NCBI RefSeq assembly: GCF_003148825.1
Contig: NZ_QGGZ01000012.1
Coordinates: forward strand, 62,001-126,000
Reading direction: 5' to 3'
DNA length: 64,000 bases
Source: Streptomyces sp. CG 926
GTDB lineage: Bacteria; Actinomycetota; Actinomycetes; Streptomycetales; Streptomycetaceae
Shown in pieces: positions 33,421 through 40,550 of the stretch; the first letter of the stretch is position 1; each line of letters starts with the position of its first letter. A program made the translations under genes and the position numbers. The notes beneath the pieces were generated by a model that was given only the letters and a program-made list of their open reading frames with translations, was not told where the DNA came from and made no database searches.

Positions 33421-33549
33421 TCTGTTCCGCTTCGCCGCCGGGAGGGCTTCTAGGGGCCCTTTCGTCGTTGGACAGCCCGGAATCCCCTTGTGACGATCTT
33501 CAGGCCAAAGGTTCTTGACCAAGTTCCTTGATCTGTGGGGGAAACCAGC

Positions 33550-34281
33550 ATGAAGCTCACCCGTACCGCGCTCGCCGTGACCGTCGGCGCCCTGGCCCCG
33601 GCCCTGCTCCTCGCCACCCCGGCCCTCGCCGCCGGCCAAGCCGCCGCCGCTCCCGCCAAGGTGGCCGCGGTGACCGCCGGGGAGTCGCCGTACGACACCA
33701 TGACGGACACCCAGCTCCGCTTCGAGGTCGCCCGCATCCTGGCCGCCAACCCGGGCAAGGGCGTCACCCGTGCGGCGAACAAGGCCCTGGACGGCACCAC
33801 CGAGGACGTCCGCACCTTCCTCAAGACCGGCCTGGCGAAGGCCCAGGACGAGGACAACAAGGTCGCCATCCTTCGGATCCTGAACACCAAACCCGGCAAG
33901 GGCGTCACCCGCGAGATCAACCGCGCCCTGGACGGCACCCCGGCCGACCGCGTCGCGTTCCTGGCCACCGGCTACGCCAAGGCTCAGGACGAGGACAACA
34001 AGGTTGCCATCCTGCGGATCCTGCACGCCAACCCGGCCACCGGAAAGGGCGTCAAGCGCGAGGCGAACAAGGCCCTCGACGGCACCCCGGCCGACCGGAC
34101 CGCGTTCCTGAAGACCGGGCTGCGGCTGGCGCAGGCCGAGGACGACCGCGTCGACGTCGCCCGCATCCTGGCCCGCCCGGTCATCAGCGACGCGCTGTAC
34201 GCGGAGTGCCAGAGGCTCCTGAACGGCAGCACTCCGGAGGAGCTCCGGTACTTCATCACGGTGGGCCAGTACCAGTTCTGA
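33550..34281 (+). CDS. Secreted ALF-repeat protein
   Basis: A 243-aa secreted protein. Signal peptide at residues 1-28 (VTVGALAPALLLATPALAAG). It then has four repeats of about 45-50 residues, each with an ALDGTPADR-x-AFL-x-TGL-x-AQ-x-ED and R-IL pattern, the ALF repeat found in many secreted actinobacterial proteins, often with toxin or enzyme domains. Here the repeats stand alone. The final repeat is diverged and ends YFITVGQYQF. ATG 33550 follows GGGGGA. Function is unknown; the repeats probably form a helical solenoid for adhesion or protein binding. Confidence 0.8.
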   Translation: MKLTRTALAVTVGALAPALLLATPALAAGQAAAAPAKVAAVTAGESPYDTMTDTQLRFEVARILAANPGKGVTRAANKALDGTTEDVRTFLKTGLAKAQDEDNKVAILRILNTKPGKGVTREINRALDGTPADRVAFLATGYAKAQDEDNKVAILRILHANPATGKGVKREANKALDGTPADRTAFLKTGLRLAQAEDDRVDVARILARPVISDALYAECQRLLNGSTPEELRYFITVGQYQF

Positions 34282-34335: not shown

Positions 34336-35649
34336 CTAGCCGCTGACGACCTTGTCGTAGCGCAGGGCGACGTAGCCCGAGGCGGCGTGACCCGCGATGC
34401 GGCCGTCGGTGCCGCCGTTCAGGTAGTCCTGGCCGCGCATCATGTCGTCGTTGGTGTTGGCCTCGTGGATGTACGAGAACTTGCCCGCGCCCTTGTCGAT
34501 CCACTTCTCGAAGAGCACCACGTGCCCGTCCAGGGTGTTCAGCGCGTCGCCGGGCTGCAGGTCGGACTTGGAGATGGTGGCGGCGACGCCCGGCAGGCTC
34601 TGGGTCGTGTAGCTGGTACCGGCGTGCCAGACCATGGACACGAAGCCGGAGCAGTCGGTGCGGTAGGTGTGGTCGCCGTCCGGGTCGGAGGCGTACGCGC
34701 CCTGGTTGTACGGGATGTCGCGGCTCAGCCAGTTCGCGGCCCGGCTCATGATCTCGCTGCGCGCGATCTGCCCGCCCTTGGTGGAGGGGGTGGGGGTGGG
34801 CGGCGCCGGCGGCTGGTAGGTGCAGTCGTCGGCGAAGGCGGACAGCAGGCTCTGGGTCCAGCCGCTCGCGTCGACCGGGTCGGCGGGGTGGTAGGCGATG
34901 TCGTCGCCCTTGCCGTCGGTGGGGTCGGCGTCGTGGTACCAGTACATCCCGCCGTTCGTCCGGCCGTAGTAGAGGCCGCCGCCGGGCGAGACGAGGTTGT
35001 CGACCGCCGCCCAGCCGGAGCTCTTGAGCTGCGAACTCTCCCAGTCGCCGACGCCGTTGATCTGGTACGAGAGCAGTCGACCGTCGGCGGTGCTCGCGAT
35101 GAGGACGTCGTCGCCGGCCGCGGCGAGCGTCTTGAGGACGAAGCCCGTGTCGATGACCGCGTGCTTGGCGATGTGCGCGGGGCCGCTGGGCTTCGCCTGG
35201 GAGACGTTGTAGCGGTGGAGCTCGCCGGCGACCGTGCCGTAGAGGTGGCCGGCGCCGTCGTAGGTCAGCTTGTCGAAGGTCCAGCCGCTGTCCCAGATCT
35301 TGGTGACCCCGGCCAGGGCCAGGGCGCTGTCGTTGGTCTGGATGTCGACGCGGTACAGCTCGCCGGCCGTCGACGTCACGAGGACGGTGTTGAAGTTGAG
35401 GGTGGCCATCGCCTTGGGCGTGAAGCCGAGGTTCGCGCCGATCAGGGTCTTGACGCGGTCACCGGTGTTGGGGGCTATCGCCGTGTAGGTGAGGCGTCCG
35501 TCCGGGAGGATTCCGTAGACCGACACGTTGCCGCCGCAGATGGCGGCGGCCTGGGCCGGGGCCGTCGAGCTGAGGGTGACCATGCCGAGGGTGGTGGCGG
35601 CGACGGCCAGGGTGGCGGCGAAGCGGCGCTTGCGGGACGACGAGGACAT
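34336..35649 (-). CDS. Secreted tachylectin-like propeller with NlpC/P60 hydrolase domain
   Basis: A 437-aa secreted protein. Signal peptide about 1-35; a five-bladed tachylectin-2-like propeller at about 37-285 (repeats such as YGILPDGRLTY, TLNFNTVLVTS, WDSGWTFDKLTYDGAGHLYG and LYYGRTNGGMYWYHD), a family that binds N-acetylglucosamine. A Pro/Thr linker follows, then a C-terminal NlpC/P60-like domain with catalytic Cys in TDCSGFVSMVW and His in LDGHVVLF. It likely cuts peptidoglycan stem peptides while the propeller holds cell wall or chitin. It lies 91 bp after its paralogue on the same strand and is probably the last gene of a four-gene operon. Confidence 0.85.
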   Translation of the reverse strand: MSSSSRKRRFAATLAVAATTLGMVTLSSTAPAQAAAICGGNVSVYGILPDGRLTYTAIAPNTGDRVKTLIGANLGFTPKAMATLNFNTVLVTSTAGELYRVDIQTNDSALALAGVTKIWDSGWTFDKLTYDGAGHLYGTVAGELHRYNVSQAKPSGPAHIAKHAVIDTGFVLKTLAAAGDDVLIASTADGRLLSYQINGVGDWESSQLKSSGWAAVDNLVSPGGGLYYGRTNGGMYWYHDADPTDGKGDDIAYHPADPVDASGWTQSLLSAFADDCTYQPPAPPTPTPSTKGGQIARSEIMSRAANWLSRDIPYNQGAYASDPDGDHTYRTDCSGFVSMVWHAGTSYTTQSLPGVAATISKSDLQPGDALNTLDGHVVLFEKWIDKGAGKFSYIHEANTNDDMMRGQDYLNGGTDGRIAGHAASGYVALRYDKVVSG

Positions 35650-35740: not shown

Positions 35741-36946
35741 TCAGTACCAGTTGTGGCTCAGGAAGTGGTTCCAGGCGCCGCAGGGCGTGTCGTACTGGCC
35801 GTCGATGTAGGACAGGCCCCACTTGATCTGGGTGACCGGGTTGGTGCGCCAGTCGTCGCCGAAGGCGTCCATCTTGGAGCCGGGCAGGGCTTGGGGGATG
35901 CCGTAGGCCGTCGAGTTCGGGTTGTCGGCCCAGTAGCGCCAGCCGCTCTCCTTGTCCCAGAGCTGCTCCAGGCAGTTCCACTGGGTGGTGCTGTTCCAGG
36001 CGCCGCCGTCGTGCTTGTTCATCAGGTCGCGGCCGGCCGCCTTCACGGCGGGGATGTTCCGGCCGTCGAGCGGGTCCGCGGTGGTGGTGCAGCTGAAGGT
36101 CGCCGGCTGGGCGGAAAGGAGCTGCTGCGTCCAACCGCCGGTGTTGACGGGCGTGTCGTTGTGGTACGCGATGTCGGCGCCGGTGCCGTCGGCCGGATCG
36201 GCGTCCTTGTACCAGTACATGGCACCCGTGGTCTCGATCCGGCCGTAGTAGAGACCCCCACCGGGCGACACGACCTGGTCGAAGCCGGACCAGCCGGAGG
36301 TCTTGAGGTCGTCGCGACCCCAGGAACCGTCACTGTTGATCTTGTAGGAGTACAGGGCGCCCGCCGAGGTGGTGGCGAGCAGGCGGTCGTCCCCGGCGGC
36401 CGTGAGGGTCTTCAGGACGAAGCCGGTCCCTATCTCCTTGCGCTGCCCGATGTGCGCCGAGCCGGTCGGCTTGGGCTGGGAGACCAGGTACTGGAGCAGG
36501 ACCCCGCCCGCCGTGCCGTACAGGTGGCCGTGGCCGTCGTAGGCGAGCTTGTCGTGGGTCCAGCCGCTGTCGAAGATCTTGACGGGCGGGCGTTCCAGGA
36601 CGAGGGACTCGTTGTTGGTGAGGACGTCGAGACGGTAGAGCGCCCCGGACGTGGAGGTCACCAGGATGGTGTTGAAGTCGAGGGTGGCCATCGCCTTGGG
36701 CTCGAACCCCAGGTCCGCTCCGACCCGCACCTTCTTCAACGCGCCGGTGGCCGGGGTGATCGTGCTGAAGGTGAGCCGCCCGTCGGGAAGGACGCCGTAG
36801 ATCGAGGCGGTCCCACCGCAGGTGGTCGCGGCCTGTGCGGCCGGGGCGGTGGCGACGGACGCGGCCGTGAGCAGTCCGGCGCCGAGGACGGTGGAGAGGG
36901 CGGCGACCGCGCTCGTGCGGGCAGCCTGACGGAGGGTGGTGGTCAC
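35741..36946 (-). CDS. Secreted tachylectin-like propeller with lytic transglycosylase-type domain
   Basis: A 401-aa secreted protein, paralogue of the previous one over the propeller (YGVLPDGRLTF, TLDFNTILVTS, IFDSGWTHDKLAYDGHGHLYG). The C-terminal 100 residues differ: LWDKESGWRYWADNPNSTAYGIPQAL is the catalytic-Glu region of aggregation-promoting-factor/lysozyme-like transglycosylases. GTG 36946 has CAGGAG seven bases upstream. It starts 20 bp after the 91-aa gene. The two paralogues keep one binding module and carry different peptidoglycan-cleaving modules. Confidence 0.87.
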   Translation of the reverse strand: MTTTLRQAARTSAVAALSTVLGAGLLTAASVATAPAAQAATTCGGTASIYGVLPDGRLTFSTITPATGALKKVRVGADLGFEPKAMATLDFNTILVTSTSGALYRLDVLTNNESLVLERPPVKIFDSGWTHDKLAYDGHGHLYGTAGGVLLQYLVSQPKPTGSAHIGQRKEIGTGFVLKTLTAAGDDRLLATTSAGALYSYKINSDGSWGRDDLKTSGWSGFDQVVSPGGGLYYGRIETTGAMYWYKDADPADGTGADIAYHNDTPVNTGGWTQQLLSAQPATFSCTTTADPLDGRNIPAVKAAGRDLMNKHDGGAWNSTTQWNCLEQLWDKESGWRYWADNPNSTAYGIPQALPGSKMDAFGDDWRTNPVTQIKWGLSYIDGQYDTPCGAWNHFLSHNWY

Positions 36947-36966: not shown

Positions 36967-37242
36967 TCACGGGAGCGGCCCGGCGGTGCGGTAGCCGTGC
37001 GCCCGCAGCGGGGCGCGGGCGCCGTCGAGGATGGCGTGGGCCTGGGCGAGGGCCGCGGCTTCGGAGGCGGCCCGCAGGAAGAGGTAGACGTGGACGCCGT
37101 CGGCGGCGGCTCTGGTCCGCAGGTGCTCCAGTCCGTGCGCCGCGGGCGTGTGGGCCCAGATCAGATCGGAGACGAGCGCGAGCACGCCCTCCTGGTCCGG
37201 ATCGGTACGAGGCCCTGCGAGGGAGGCCCGGATGACGCGCAC
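36967..37242 (-). CDS. Small cytoplasmic protein of the SINWD peptide operon
   Basis: A 91-aa protein from GTG 37242, only five bases after the peptide gene's stop. It has one central beta strand VHVYLFLRA and flanking helices (LEHLRTRAAADG; ALAQAHAILDGARAPLRAHGY). No signal peptide, no known domain. Its placement between a secreted peptide gene and secreted cell-wall hydrolases in one apparent operon suggests an immunity, chaperone or regulatory role, but this is only context. Confidence 0.65.
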   Translation of the reverse strand: MRVIRASLAGPRTDPDQEGVLALVSDLIWAHTPAAHGLEHLRTRAAADGVHVYLFLRAASEAAALAQAHAILDGARAPLRAHGYRTAGPLP

Positions 37243-37247
37243 GCCGG

Positions 37248-37430
37248 CTAGTCCCAGTTGATGCTGTCCTCGACGGACACGGGGGCCGTGTCCCAGTTGA
37301 TGCTGTCCTCCGCGGAGGCGCTGACGTGGTGGCTACCTGCGGAGGAGACCACCGGGACGGTGGTGACCGTAGCGGCGCAGAGGGCGGCGAGGACGGCGGC
37401 GGCAGCGGCGAGGCGGGCGGTGCGGGACAT
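37248..37430 (-). CDS. Secreted peptide with duplicated EDSINWD C-terminus
   Basis: A 60-aa precursor from ATG 37430, with GGGAGAAGCC ribosome site. Residues 1-32 form a Sec-type signal (RTARLAAAAAVLAALCAATV). The mature part is about 28 residues and ends with two copies of EDSINWD (residues 41-47 and 54-60), the last being the exact C-terminus. The DNA of the two copies is also nearly identical. Small exported peptides with conserved C-termini serve as pheromones or RiPP cores in Gram-positives; no modification enzyme is present here. A TrmB/LuxR-type regulator diverges from it. Confidence 0.75.
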   Translation of the reverse strand: MSRTARLAAAAAVLAALCAATVTTVPVVSSAGSHHVSASAEDSINWDTAPVSVEDSINWD

Positions 37431-37696
37431 GGCTTCTCCCAGGGTCACGGGGCGTCGGGCGATGCGTTCGGTGCGGTGTGCTGCGCGCTGATCCGGATCG
37501 TCCTTGCGGCTCTGGCCTGAGTCGGGGACTTCCGTCCCCGCCGTCCCGGTGGTCACCATGCTGCTGCCCCCGGACCCCGCGAAGAAGAGGTTCCGGCCGG
37601 CACCAACAGGCCTGGCACCTTGGTGACAGACATCGCCTACGATCGCGGTGGCCGCGCTCACCGAACACGGCCCAACTACGGCCGGGGGGCTGGGAG

Positions 37697-38683
37697 ATGC
37701 TGCAGACGCTGGGGCTCGGGGCCGACGTGGAAGCCGTGTACCGGGGCATGCTGGCCGACCCGTCGGGAGGGATCGCCGAGCTCAGCGCCCGCCTCGGCAT
37801 CCCCGAGGCCCAGGTCCGCGCCGGTCTGGACCGGCTCGTCGATCTCGACCTGCTCAGACCGTCCCGGGACTGCCCCGGCGCGCTGCGGGCGGTACGGCCC
37901 GAGCTGGGTCTGGAACTCCTGCTGCGCCGCCAGGAGGAGGAACTGGCCCGGCAGCAGCAGGAGCTGGCCCGCAGCAAGGCGGCAGCGGCGCAGGTGGTCT
38001 CCGAGTTCGCCGACCTCAGCCCGAACACCGAGGTCGACGGCGCGGAACGGCTGGTGGGGATGGATGCCATCCAGAGCCGGCTGGAGCAGCTCGCCCACGG
38101 GCTGACCCGGGAATGCCTGGCGATCCTGCCGGGCGGCGCGCTGTCGGAGGCGAGCCTGGAGTCCTCCCGGCCGCTGGACCGACGGGCACTGGCTCGCGGC
38201 ATCGAGATGCGCTCGGTGTACCAGGACAGCGCGCGCAACGATCCGACGACGCTGGCCTACGCCCGGTGGCTGACGGAGGAGGGCGGCCAGGTGCGGACCA
38301 GCCCGCTCCTGCCGCCGCGCCTGCTGATCTTCGACCGGGCGGTGGCGGTGGTCCCGATCGACCCCGCCCACTCGCGCCTGGGCGCCCTGTGCACGAGCGC
38401 GCCGGGCATCGTGGCCTCGCTGGTCAACCTGTTCGAGCAGACGTGGGACTCGGCCGTCCCGCTCGGAGCCGACCGCCCGCGCCCCAGCGACTCCCGGCCC
38501 ACGGCGACCGAGTTGGAACTGCTCAAGCTGCTGGCGTCGGGGATGACCGACGAGGCGGCGGCCAAGCGGCTCGGGGTGTCGTTGCGCACCGTCCGGCGCC
38601 AGATGGCGGCCCTGATGGAACGCCTCCACGCGACGAGCCGCTTCGAGGCCGGCCTGAAGGCGGCGCAGCAGGGCTGGCTCTGA
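37697..38683 (+). CDS. TrmB/LuxR-like helix-turn-helix regulator
   Basis: A 328-aa regulator. The N-terminal winged helix (about residues 10-60; GGIAELSARLGIPEAQVRAGLDRLVDLDLL) is TrmB-like. A coiled coil follows (about 75-105; RRQEEELARQQQELARSK), a phospholipase-D-like sensor region, then a C-terminal LuxR-type HTH at about 265-325 (ATELELLKLLASGMTDEAAAKRLGVSLRTVRRQMAAL). This architecture is common in streptomycetes next to peptide and lanthipeptide genes. It diverges from the SINWD peptide gene across 266 bp and is the natural candidate to sense or control it. ATG 37697 was chosen with GGGGGG seven bases upstream. Confidence 0.85.
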   Translation: MLQTLGLGADVEAVYRGMLADPSGGIAELSARLGIPEAQVRAGLDRLVDLDLLRPSRDCPGALRAVRPELGLELLLRRQEEELARQQQELARSKAAAAQVVSEFADLSPNTEVDGAERLVGMDAIQSRLEQLAHGLTRECLAILPGGALSEASLESSRPLDRRALARGIEMRSVYQDSARNDPTTLAYARWLTEEGGQVRTSPLLPPRLLIFDRAVAVVPIDPAHSRLGALCTSAPGIVASLVNLFEQTWDSAVPLGADRPRPSDSRPTATELELLKLLASGMTDEAAAKRLGVSLRTVRRQMAALMERLHATSRFEAGLKAAQQGWL

Positions 38684-39484: not shown

Positions 39485-39721
39485 TCAGAGGCTCCGGACG
39501 AACGCGCCGAAGGCCGTTGCCGTGACCGTGAAGACCGGCCCGCCGGGGTTCTTGGAGTCCCGGACCGCCACCCGGCCGTCTCCTCCGGTGGTTCCGCTGT
39601 ACGAAGCCTTGCGCCAGGCGGCGGTGCCGAGCGGAGAGCACTCGACGCAGTCGCCGCCGGTGTTCCCGCTGTAGCTGGACTTACGCCACACAGCGCCCGC
39701 CAGGTTCTGGTTGCTCCGCAT
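39485..39721 (-). CDS. DUF397 protein, two half-domains
   Basis: A 78-aa protein with the W-R-K-S-S-Y-S-G pattern twice: residues about 12-31 (truncated first domain) and 35-75 (complete, ending VRDSKNPGGPVFTVTATAFGAFV). DUF397 proteins are paired with Scr1/BldB-associated XRE regulators in actinomycetes and may act as small toxins or co-regulators. Its ATG at 39721 lies inside the 3' end of the XRE gene, a 41-bp overlap. Confidence 0.9.
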   Translation of the reverse strand: MRSNQNLAGAVWRKSSYSGNTGGDCVECSPLGTAAWRKASYSGTTGGDGRVAVRDSKNPGGPVFTVTATAFGAFVRSL

Positions 39722-40550
39722 AACGCTCCTCCATGACCCGCGTGATCAACGCCGCCGAGTCCTCGACGGAGAGCGCGGCGGCCTGCAAGTGAGCGTAACG
39801 AAGGGCGGCTTCCCTGACTGTGTCAGGGTTGGCCGTCGTGTGCCCCGAGATGAGGTCCTCGGTGTAGACAAGGTCCGGGTCGCTGGCGAACCGCATCGCG
39901 TTGAACGCCCCGATGAGACCGGCATGTTCGCCAGCCGAGTTGGGCAGCACCTGGATCTGCACCCATCGGTTCTCACGGAAGCTCAGCAGGTGGACGAGCT
40001 GCTCGCGCATCGCCTCTCGACCACCGATCTCCCTGTGGAGCACCCCCTCGTCAAGCACCACCCAGACCATCGGCGGCCTCTCCCGCCGCAGGATGCGGTG
40101 GCGCTCCATGCGGGCCGCGACCAGCTCTTCGAGCTTGTCCGGCAGCCCGCTGGCCAGCACAGCTCGCGCGTACGCCTCCGTCTGGAGCAGCCCGTGCACC
40201 AGTTGGGGCTGATAGGCGGAGATGTACGCCGCCCGGGCTTCCATCTCGGCGTATGCCTGGAACCACGTCGGTAGGACGCTCCGTAGGACCAGCCCCACCA
40301 GGCGGGAAAAGTGCCCGTCCGTGCCCAGGGCCGCGTCCACCCGCTCCGAGAAGTCCCGCGTCGGGACCCGTTTGCCGTTCTCGATCATGCCGATCAAGGA
40401 GCCCGTGCAGAAGATGATCGCGCCCAGCTGTGCCTGCTTCAGGCCCGCTTCTTCTCTCAATCGGCGCAGCTCGTAGCTGTAGTAGTCCAGCGGTGAGGCG
40501 CTGGGATCGATGTCGCGGGCCTGGACCAAGGGATGGTCACCCCCATGCAA
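39681..40550 (-). CDS. Scr1-type XRE regulator with DUF5753 domain
   Basis: A 289-aa regulator. XRE HTH at about residues 25-80 (LRRLREEAGLKQAQLGAIIFCTGSLIGMIENGKRVP), then the Scr1/DUF5753 domain to about 275 (YQPQLVHGLLQTEAYARAVL; FRENRWVQIQVLP). In streptomycetes this family pairs with DUF397 proteins in units resembling the whiJ locus. The open frame starts with TTG 40550; TTG 40529, preceded by GGGGGTG, is also possible. It overlaps the DUF397 gene, and the hydrolase follows, making a three-gene unit. Confidence 0.88.
   Translation of the reverse strand: MHGGDHPLVQARDIDPSASPLDYYSYELRRLREEAGLKQAQLGAIIFCTGSLIGMIENGKRVPTRDFSERVDAALGTDGHFSRLVGLVLRSVLPTWFQAYAEMEARAAYISAYQPQLVHGLLQTEAYARAVLASGLPDKLEELVAARMERHRILRRERPPMVWVVLDEGVLHREIGGREAMREQLVHLLSFRENRWVQIQVLPNSAGEHAGLIGAFNAMRFASDPDLVYTEDLISGHTTANPDTVREAALRYAHLQAAALSVEDSAALITRVMEERYAEQPEPGGRCVA

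Follow-up and report, generated by a model that had tools for sequence, protein, structure and literature searches.

The window, by which we mean the whole 64,000-nucleotide stretch of DNA that was analysed, contains a peptide gene that is followed on the minus strand by three further genes and faces a divergent regulator gene. All of these genes lie where an earlier note on this DNA had placed them. The features of the locus are as follows.

37248..37430, minus strand: propeptide of 60 aa with two SINWD copies and a TAP-containing linker between them (open reading frame and translation)
37290..37304, minus strand: SINWD copy 1 of the propeptide (translation; DNA repeat)
37251..37265, minus strand: SINWD copy 2 of the propeptide, abutting the stop codon (translation; DNA repeat)
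36967..37242, minus strand: gene for the EH protein, 91 aa, cytosolic, with a predicted ferredoxin-like fold and a conserved Glu39-His40 (AF2, mean pLDDT 93.2)
35741..36946, minus strand: secreted wall hydrolase, propeller plus APF C-terminal lysozyme-like domain (NCBIfam; start from homologues)
34336..35649, minus strand: secreted wall hydrolase, tachylectin-type propeller plus NlpC/P60-like domain with DCSGFVSM (Pfam; motif)
37697..38683, plus strand: regulator of 328 aa, TrmB/PLD-like/LuxR, candidate peptide receptor (Pfam, AF2, Foldseek)
37613..37628, no strand assigned: putative operator TGGCACCTTGGTGACA in the shared divergent promoter, one mismatch from TGGCACCwwGGTGCCA
37548..37557, no strand assigned: second conserved intergenic element GGTGGTCACC, which is GGTGATCACC or GGTGAACACC in relatives (intergenic alignments of SINWD and VIGWD loci)

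The 91-aa gene lies 5 bp past the peptide stop and the first hydrolase gene 20 bp past the 91-aa stop, both as previously claimed, with the GTG at 36946 picked as the start of the hydrolase from homologues beginning MTTTLRQ or MTPTLRQ. The regulator, which had been called TrmB/LuxR-like, starts divergently at ATG 37697 and its domains were confirmed as described below. The peptide and EH genes are also annotated independently in RefSeq, where both appear as hypothetical proteins in each of two plasmid copies. Past the hydrolases, and convergent with them, is a gene for a secreted protein with four ALF repeats (33535-34281; PF03752, E 6e-42), and a gene resembling it also adjoins another of the loci described below (L214). 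Beyond the regulator, positions 39485-40550 encode an XRE/DUF5753 regulator with a DUF397 partner, a pair that is common in Streptomyces.

The end of the peptide had been described as a duplicated EDSINWD. Two copies are indeed present, the last one at the stop codon, and behind them is a 27-nt DNA repeat (93% identical, copies 39 bp apart); the conserved unit, however, is the shorter SINWD, since the preceding ED is replaced by DG, PG, TN or PA in other peptides. A basic-hydrophobic, Sec-like N-terminus is predicted from hydropathy in all of the family peptides, and the precursors range from 44 to 103 aa in length. Reading the window's peptide as a lipoprotein on the strength of Cys 18 was rejected upon inspection of the sequences, as Leu precedes the Cys and the Cys is absent in other clades.

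The genome from which the window comes contains a second full cassette, comprising a regulator 89% identical to that of the window, a peptide, a relative of the 91-aa protein and an NlpC-type hydrolase. SINWD peptides were found in 5 of the 199 genus genomes searched, the window's own included, and in one genome the precursor carries four copies. A scan of named genomes, using a 7-row alignment of close regulators, added S. flavotricini, avidinii, roseus, toxytricini, fulvorobeus and other strains, giving a total of about ten genomes beyond the window's own; tblastn of plasmids with the short peptide as query gave no match. The arrangement goes beyond chance, given this paralogous cassette and the roughly ten other genomes with SINWD peptides. 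The earlier note had proposed a search of other streptomycetes for the word at peptide C-termini and for the regulator next to it, and both were present in other species; homologues lacking the regulator and any C-terminal motif, which it had named as evidence against its reading, were not the pattern encountered. At one locus (L216, Streptomyces sp. JH14) a three-unit SINWD precursor lies ~270-480 bp upstream of the regulator start, with the middle unit decayed to STNGD and the last unit intact.

The neighbourhoods of 176 regulator copies were read, with peptides detected by hydropathy and codon bias. As these regulators were drawn from among the best matches, fractions such as the 89 of 164 well-covered loci with a divergent, short, predicted-secreted peptide ending in a Trp word are not genus-wide frequencies. 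The words ending in Asp are SINWD, SISWD, VIGWD, IIGWD, GIGWD, TIGWD, SIGWD, GFGWD and NLNWD; the others are TTVWE, TTAWE, TTGWE, SLGWG, DAGWQ, DMGWQ, SMGWQ, DLGWQ, DMSWQ and DLPWTR. The general form is xxxW-D/E/Q/G, present in one to five copies per peptide, and the spacers between copies often start with TAP, SAP, VAP or VTP. Of 83 divergent short signal-peptide-like ORFs, 65 have a Trp among their four C-terminal residues, compared to 21 of 93 nearby control stretches (Fisher p 9e-14), some of the 21 control matches being family peptides themselves or pieces of the regulator gene. The peptide family is defined by the Trp filter, on which neither the control stretches nor the exact repeats depend. 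Among 88 non-identical loci, the peptide stops exactly one residue after the Trp in 81, and the last five residues occur as two to five exact copies in 54. Internal copies together with an exact terminal copy would mark the released product.

Two groups of loci depart from this layout. In L075-L079, a precursor with three to five GAGWD(TAP) copies lies ~2.7-3.1 kb downstream on the minus strand (in regulator orientation), and the EH gene is still divergent upstream of the regulator despite the precursor being on the far side. In L095, L109, L173 and L184, signal-peptide-like ORFs upstream of the regulator carry the word internally (GYGWSAPRDG, GFGWNAPADG) with a tail after it.

Peptide and EH genes occur together in 77 of the 164 loci, the peptide alone in 12, EH without a detected peptide in 40 and neither in 35; in some clades the EH gene sits between the regulator and the propeptide. 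All six EH genes found in the window's genome adjoin one of its 13 regulators of the family. A search of 148 genomes of the class detected EH almost exclusively in the sampled genus, with a single genome from another family in addition; loci among the 14 non-genus genomes of the order carry EH as well. The predicted ferredoxin-like fold is confident and the Glu-His pair near-invariant. The EH family matches no Pfam and no NCBIfam entry, there is no PDB sequence relative, and Foldseek returned generic ferredoxin-like folds (best E 0.02), and for this reason the EH protein is given no function here.

The regulator comprises a TrmB-type winged helix (residues ~1-66), a long helix (68-105), a PLD-like domain (~112-255) without the HKD motif, and a LuxR/GerE helix-turn-helix (~265-325). 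The AF2 model has a mean pLDDT of 87.6 and a pTM of 0.65, and its best Foldseek matches are archaeal TrmBL2 (E 1e-11), PLD enzymes and the TrmB sugar-binding domain 2f5t (E 7e-6). The winged-helix family PF01978 is matched by 57 of 82 regulator family members at E<=0.01 (best 2.8e-10), the window's regulator scoring 19.1 bits, under the Pfam cut-off of 25.6; GerE (PF00196) is matched by all 82, with 31.2 bits for the window's regulator over a cut-off of 23.5. No TPR is among the Pfam matches listed for these 82 members. The HKD catalytic motif is not among the conserved residues of the family, and the PLD-like domain is therefore probably ligand-binding. TrmB binds sugars, and we know of no PLD-like/TrmB regulator that binds peptides. 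The family is widespread, being present in 117 of 121 genus genomes (E<=1e-20) and in all 148 sampled genomes of the order (E<=1e-25). In Streptomyces virginiae (L066 and L220), a SINWD-type regulator 88% identical to that of the window adjoins neither a peptide nor an EH gene, and is a candidate orphan receptor.

The 16-bp palindrome given above is a feature of most WD-type loci, at -80 to -170 relative to the regulator start. Its single match in the window (with one mismatch) compares to 0.05 expected by chance, and in the 8.5-Mb genome the only sites with <=1 mismatch are the two SINWD promoters. Three sites have two mismatches, one of which is the promoter of the NLNWD locus; a reversed control pattern matched 7 times altogether with <=2 mismatches on each strand. 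This distribution of the palindrome fits a putative operator for autoregulation. The second intergenic element, taken as the bare palindromic pattern GGTGNNCACC, is weakly enriched (15/115 vs 11/221). Another k-mer, ATGTATCTCGT, was considered as an operator of the Q-type clades and discarded, as it is only where the coding sequence of their EH genes begins (M-Y-L-V). A sigma-70 scan, which is uninformative for Streptomyces, gave no promoter match. There is also a 29-nt inverted repeat, 83% complementary (37344-37372 / 37529-37557), that joins the portion of the peptide gene encoding the signal sequence to the conserved intergenic element.

We consider it rather probable that these genes form a peptide-pheromone module with the regulator as receptor, similar to RRNPP/ComRS systems and built on a non-TPR receptor. 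The propeptide would leave the cell via Sec, and extracellular cleavage would release identical short peptides terminating in W-D, approximately SINWD at this locus. These would re-enter the cell, presumably through an oligopeptide permease, and would bind to the PLD-like middle domain of the neighbouring regulator, which may then act at the palindrome of the shared promoter, resulting in autoregulation, and may control the peptide gene, the EH gene and the downstream wall hydrolases. Different words (SINWD, VIGWD, TTVWE, DMGWQ and so on) would constitute separate channels, several per cell. Export, cleavage, import, binding and the direction of regulation are steps that we infer, and what is present in the sequences themselves is the gene order, the repeats, the association of motif with regulator, the palindrome and the association with hydrolases. 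Counting against this reading, no importer or processing protease was linked to the loci, and a peptide is lacking both at the 40 loci with EH only and at the 35 with neither gene.

The two hydrolases of the window share a propeller, as had been noted (62% identical; Tachylectin in Pfam for 34336-35649). The APF C-terminal lysozyme-like domain of 35741-36946 is a clear match (NCBIfam 1.7e-34), and the NlpC/P60-like match of 34336-35649 is weak (Pfam E 0.11) with the DCSGF motif present. Sharing of a C- or N-terminal propeller or repeat region by a neighbouring hydrolase pair was also observed in L087, L068, L089, L152 and L085, and the shared region differs by locus (FG-GAP, PLL-like, tachylectin), as though it were exchanged in one piece.

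The earlier note suggested that the peptide could report on or control cell-wall turnover. Its link to wall hydrolases extends beyond this locus, as NlpC, CHAP, Rpf or APF hydrolases are co-directional on the peptide side in 52 of the 129 loci that have at least one of the peptide and EH genes, compared to 6 on the other side, and Rpf-type hydrolases (PF06737) alone number 21 on the peptide side and 1 on the other. The link does not hold throughout, since many loci with the same word have other hydrolases or none, and wall turnover is thus at most one output. The same distribution bears on the possibility that the peptide acts outside the cell on the co-encoded hydrolases, as an inhibitor, targeting or activating factor, with the regulator doing no more than controlling the operon. 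The co-directional hydrolases are what this would predict, but VIGWD loci have CHAP+Rpf, NlpC+Rpf, NlpC alone or no hydrolase, GIGWD likewise occurs with differing hydrolase types, propellers or none, and SINWD occurs both with NlpC+APF/tachylectin and with NlpC+FG-GAP (L009). In S. lavendulae and two relatives (L069, L151, L229) there is neither an EH gene nor a hydrolase, and the word is still present two to five times. We regard an extracellular action on the hydrolases as unlikely; that the word stays with the regulator while the hydrolases change or vanish favours the regulator as the partner of the peptide.

The lineage of the regulator predicts the word. On a maximum-likelihood tree of 88 regulators (quick search, simple model), the residue after the Trp requires 14 changes compared to a mean of 39 and a minimum of 33 in shuffled assignments, and the five-letter word requires 40 compared to a mean of 70 and a minimum of 66. 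In regulator pairs 80–97% identical, the last five residues of the peptides are 95% identical, the signal 67% and the other aligned mature part 55%; at 70–80% regulator identity the corresponding values are 71%, 48% and 42%. At 50–60% the advantage of the word is gone (35%, 36% and 32%), which is the range in which the word itself has changed. In VIGWD and GIGWD, the codons for Val and Gly differ synonymously, which shows that selection acts on the protein word, whereas the SINWD codons are nearly fixed, with almost no synonymous variation, and add nothing to this argument.

Neighbouring genes share descent, so the agreement between word and regulator is consistent with, and no proof of, a ligand-receptor pairing. 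Linkage alone yields agreement of trees, and the signal sequences also partly agree with the regulator, so that the released word might have no defined function and belong to a fast-evolving peptide inherited jointly with its neighbour. We think this quite improbable, given that in close relatives the last five residues are conserved well above signal and spacer, and that they recur as exact copies and run up to the stop codon.

A secreted antimicrobial or toxin-like peptide, with EH as an immunity or handling factor, would account for the EH gene beside the peptide in 77 of the 89 peptide loci, and tandem copies would raise the dose. However, the mature words are acidic, 5–7 residues long and not membrane-active in character, the 12 loci with peptide and no EH and the 40 with the reverse do not suit an immunity pair, and the linkage to the regulator would be left unexplained, so we hold this to be very improbable. 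Equally hard to credit is a RiPP precursor with a linked Trp-Asp/Glu/Gln core, for although repeated short cores with a conserved end look like multi-core precursors, the neighbourhoods read share no conserved modifying enzyme and Sec-type signals are unusual in bacterial RiPP precursors.

The pheromone module proposed above most closely resembles the RRNPP systems (Rgg-SHP, ComRS, PlcR-PapR, NprR-NprX, AimR-AimP), with which it has in common a small propeptide with a putative Sec signal and a conserved C-terminal word, encoded directly beside a cytoplasmic DNA-binding regulator of 250–500 aa, and several putatively orthogonal pairs per genome. The criteria used for that group are a propeptide of 10–100 aa, Sec export, a receptor of 250–500 aa, TPR in the receptor and adjacent genes (PMC10075063). 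Four of these five are present or plausibly present here, the propeptide having 60 aa and the candidate receptor 328 aa, and the two genes being adjacent, with EH between them in some clades. RRNPP receptors have TPR, whereas the regulator here combines a TrmB-type winged helix, a PLD-like domain and a LuxR helix-turn-helix, and for this reason the system is not filed as RRNPP. It also comes from Actinomycetota rather than Firmicutes, and many of its precursors carry 2–5 identical copies. The winged helix, long helix and PLD-like effector domain are those of archaeal TrmB/TrmBL2, to which the C-terminal LuxR helix-turn-helix is an addition; whole-chain TM-scores to these proteins are low (0.33–0.36) because the placement of the domains differs. 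The downstream genes of many modules belong to the Rpf (PF06737) and NlpC/CHAP hydrolase families, the difference being that here they occur in pairs that share one locus-specific propeller and lie beside a peptide-regulator module.

What is known of signalling in Streptomyces concerns chiefly gamma-butyrolactones and related small molecules, and to our knowledge no peptide has been assigned to the signal that the BldK importer implies. SINWD, VIGWD, GAGWD, DMGWQ, TTVWE, DAGWQ and GIGWD as peptides, and a TrmB/LuxR-peptide pair in Streptomyces, were not found in the open-access papers searched; subscription journals and preprints were outside the scope of that search, and earlier description elsewhere is possible. 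The large family of Trp-word peptides in Streptomyces and relatives is thus apparently undescribed. With the word predicted by regulator lineage and wall-cutting enzymes often alongside, these peptides look like chemical signals, and the candidate pheromones can be read from sequence to about five residues, each with its own regulator. If this holds, peptide communication in antibiotic producers, tied to wall-lytic enzymes, would be directly testable with synthetic peptides. More tentatively, and at slightly less than an even chance, the modules might represent a separate gene-encoded class of peptide quorum sensing in Streptomycetales, in which tandem-copy Trp-ended pheromones and PLD-like/LuxR receptors form many orthogonal channels per genome, several of them switching on muralytic enzymes including resuscitation-promoting factors and possibly timing wall remodelling or dormancy exit by cell density.

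Actinobacterial signals have been described as typically enzyme-made small molecules (PMC10075063). In Streptomyces coelicolor, a 655-Da peptide imported by BldK is a presumed signal, and the authors of a pangenome study argued that strains may use different signal peptides (PMC9640686). The words described here span 504–691 Da, with SINWD at 633.28, a likeness to the 655-Da peptide in size only that we treat as a lead.
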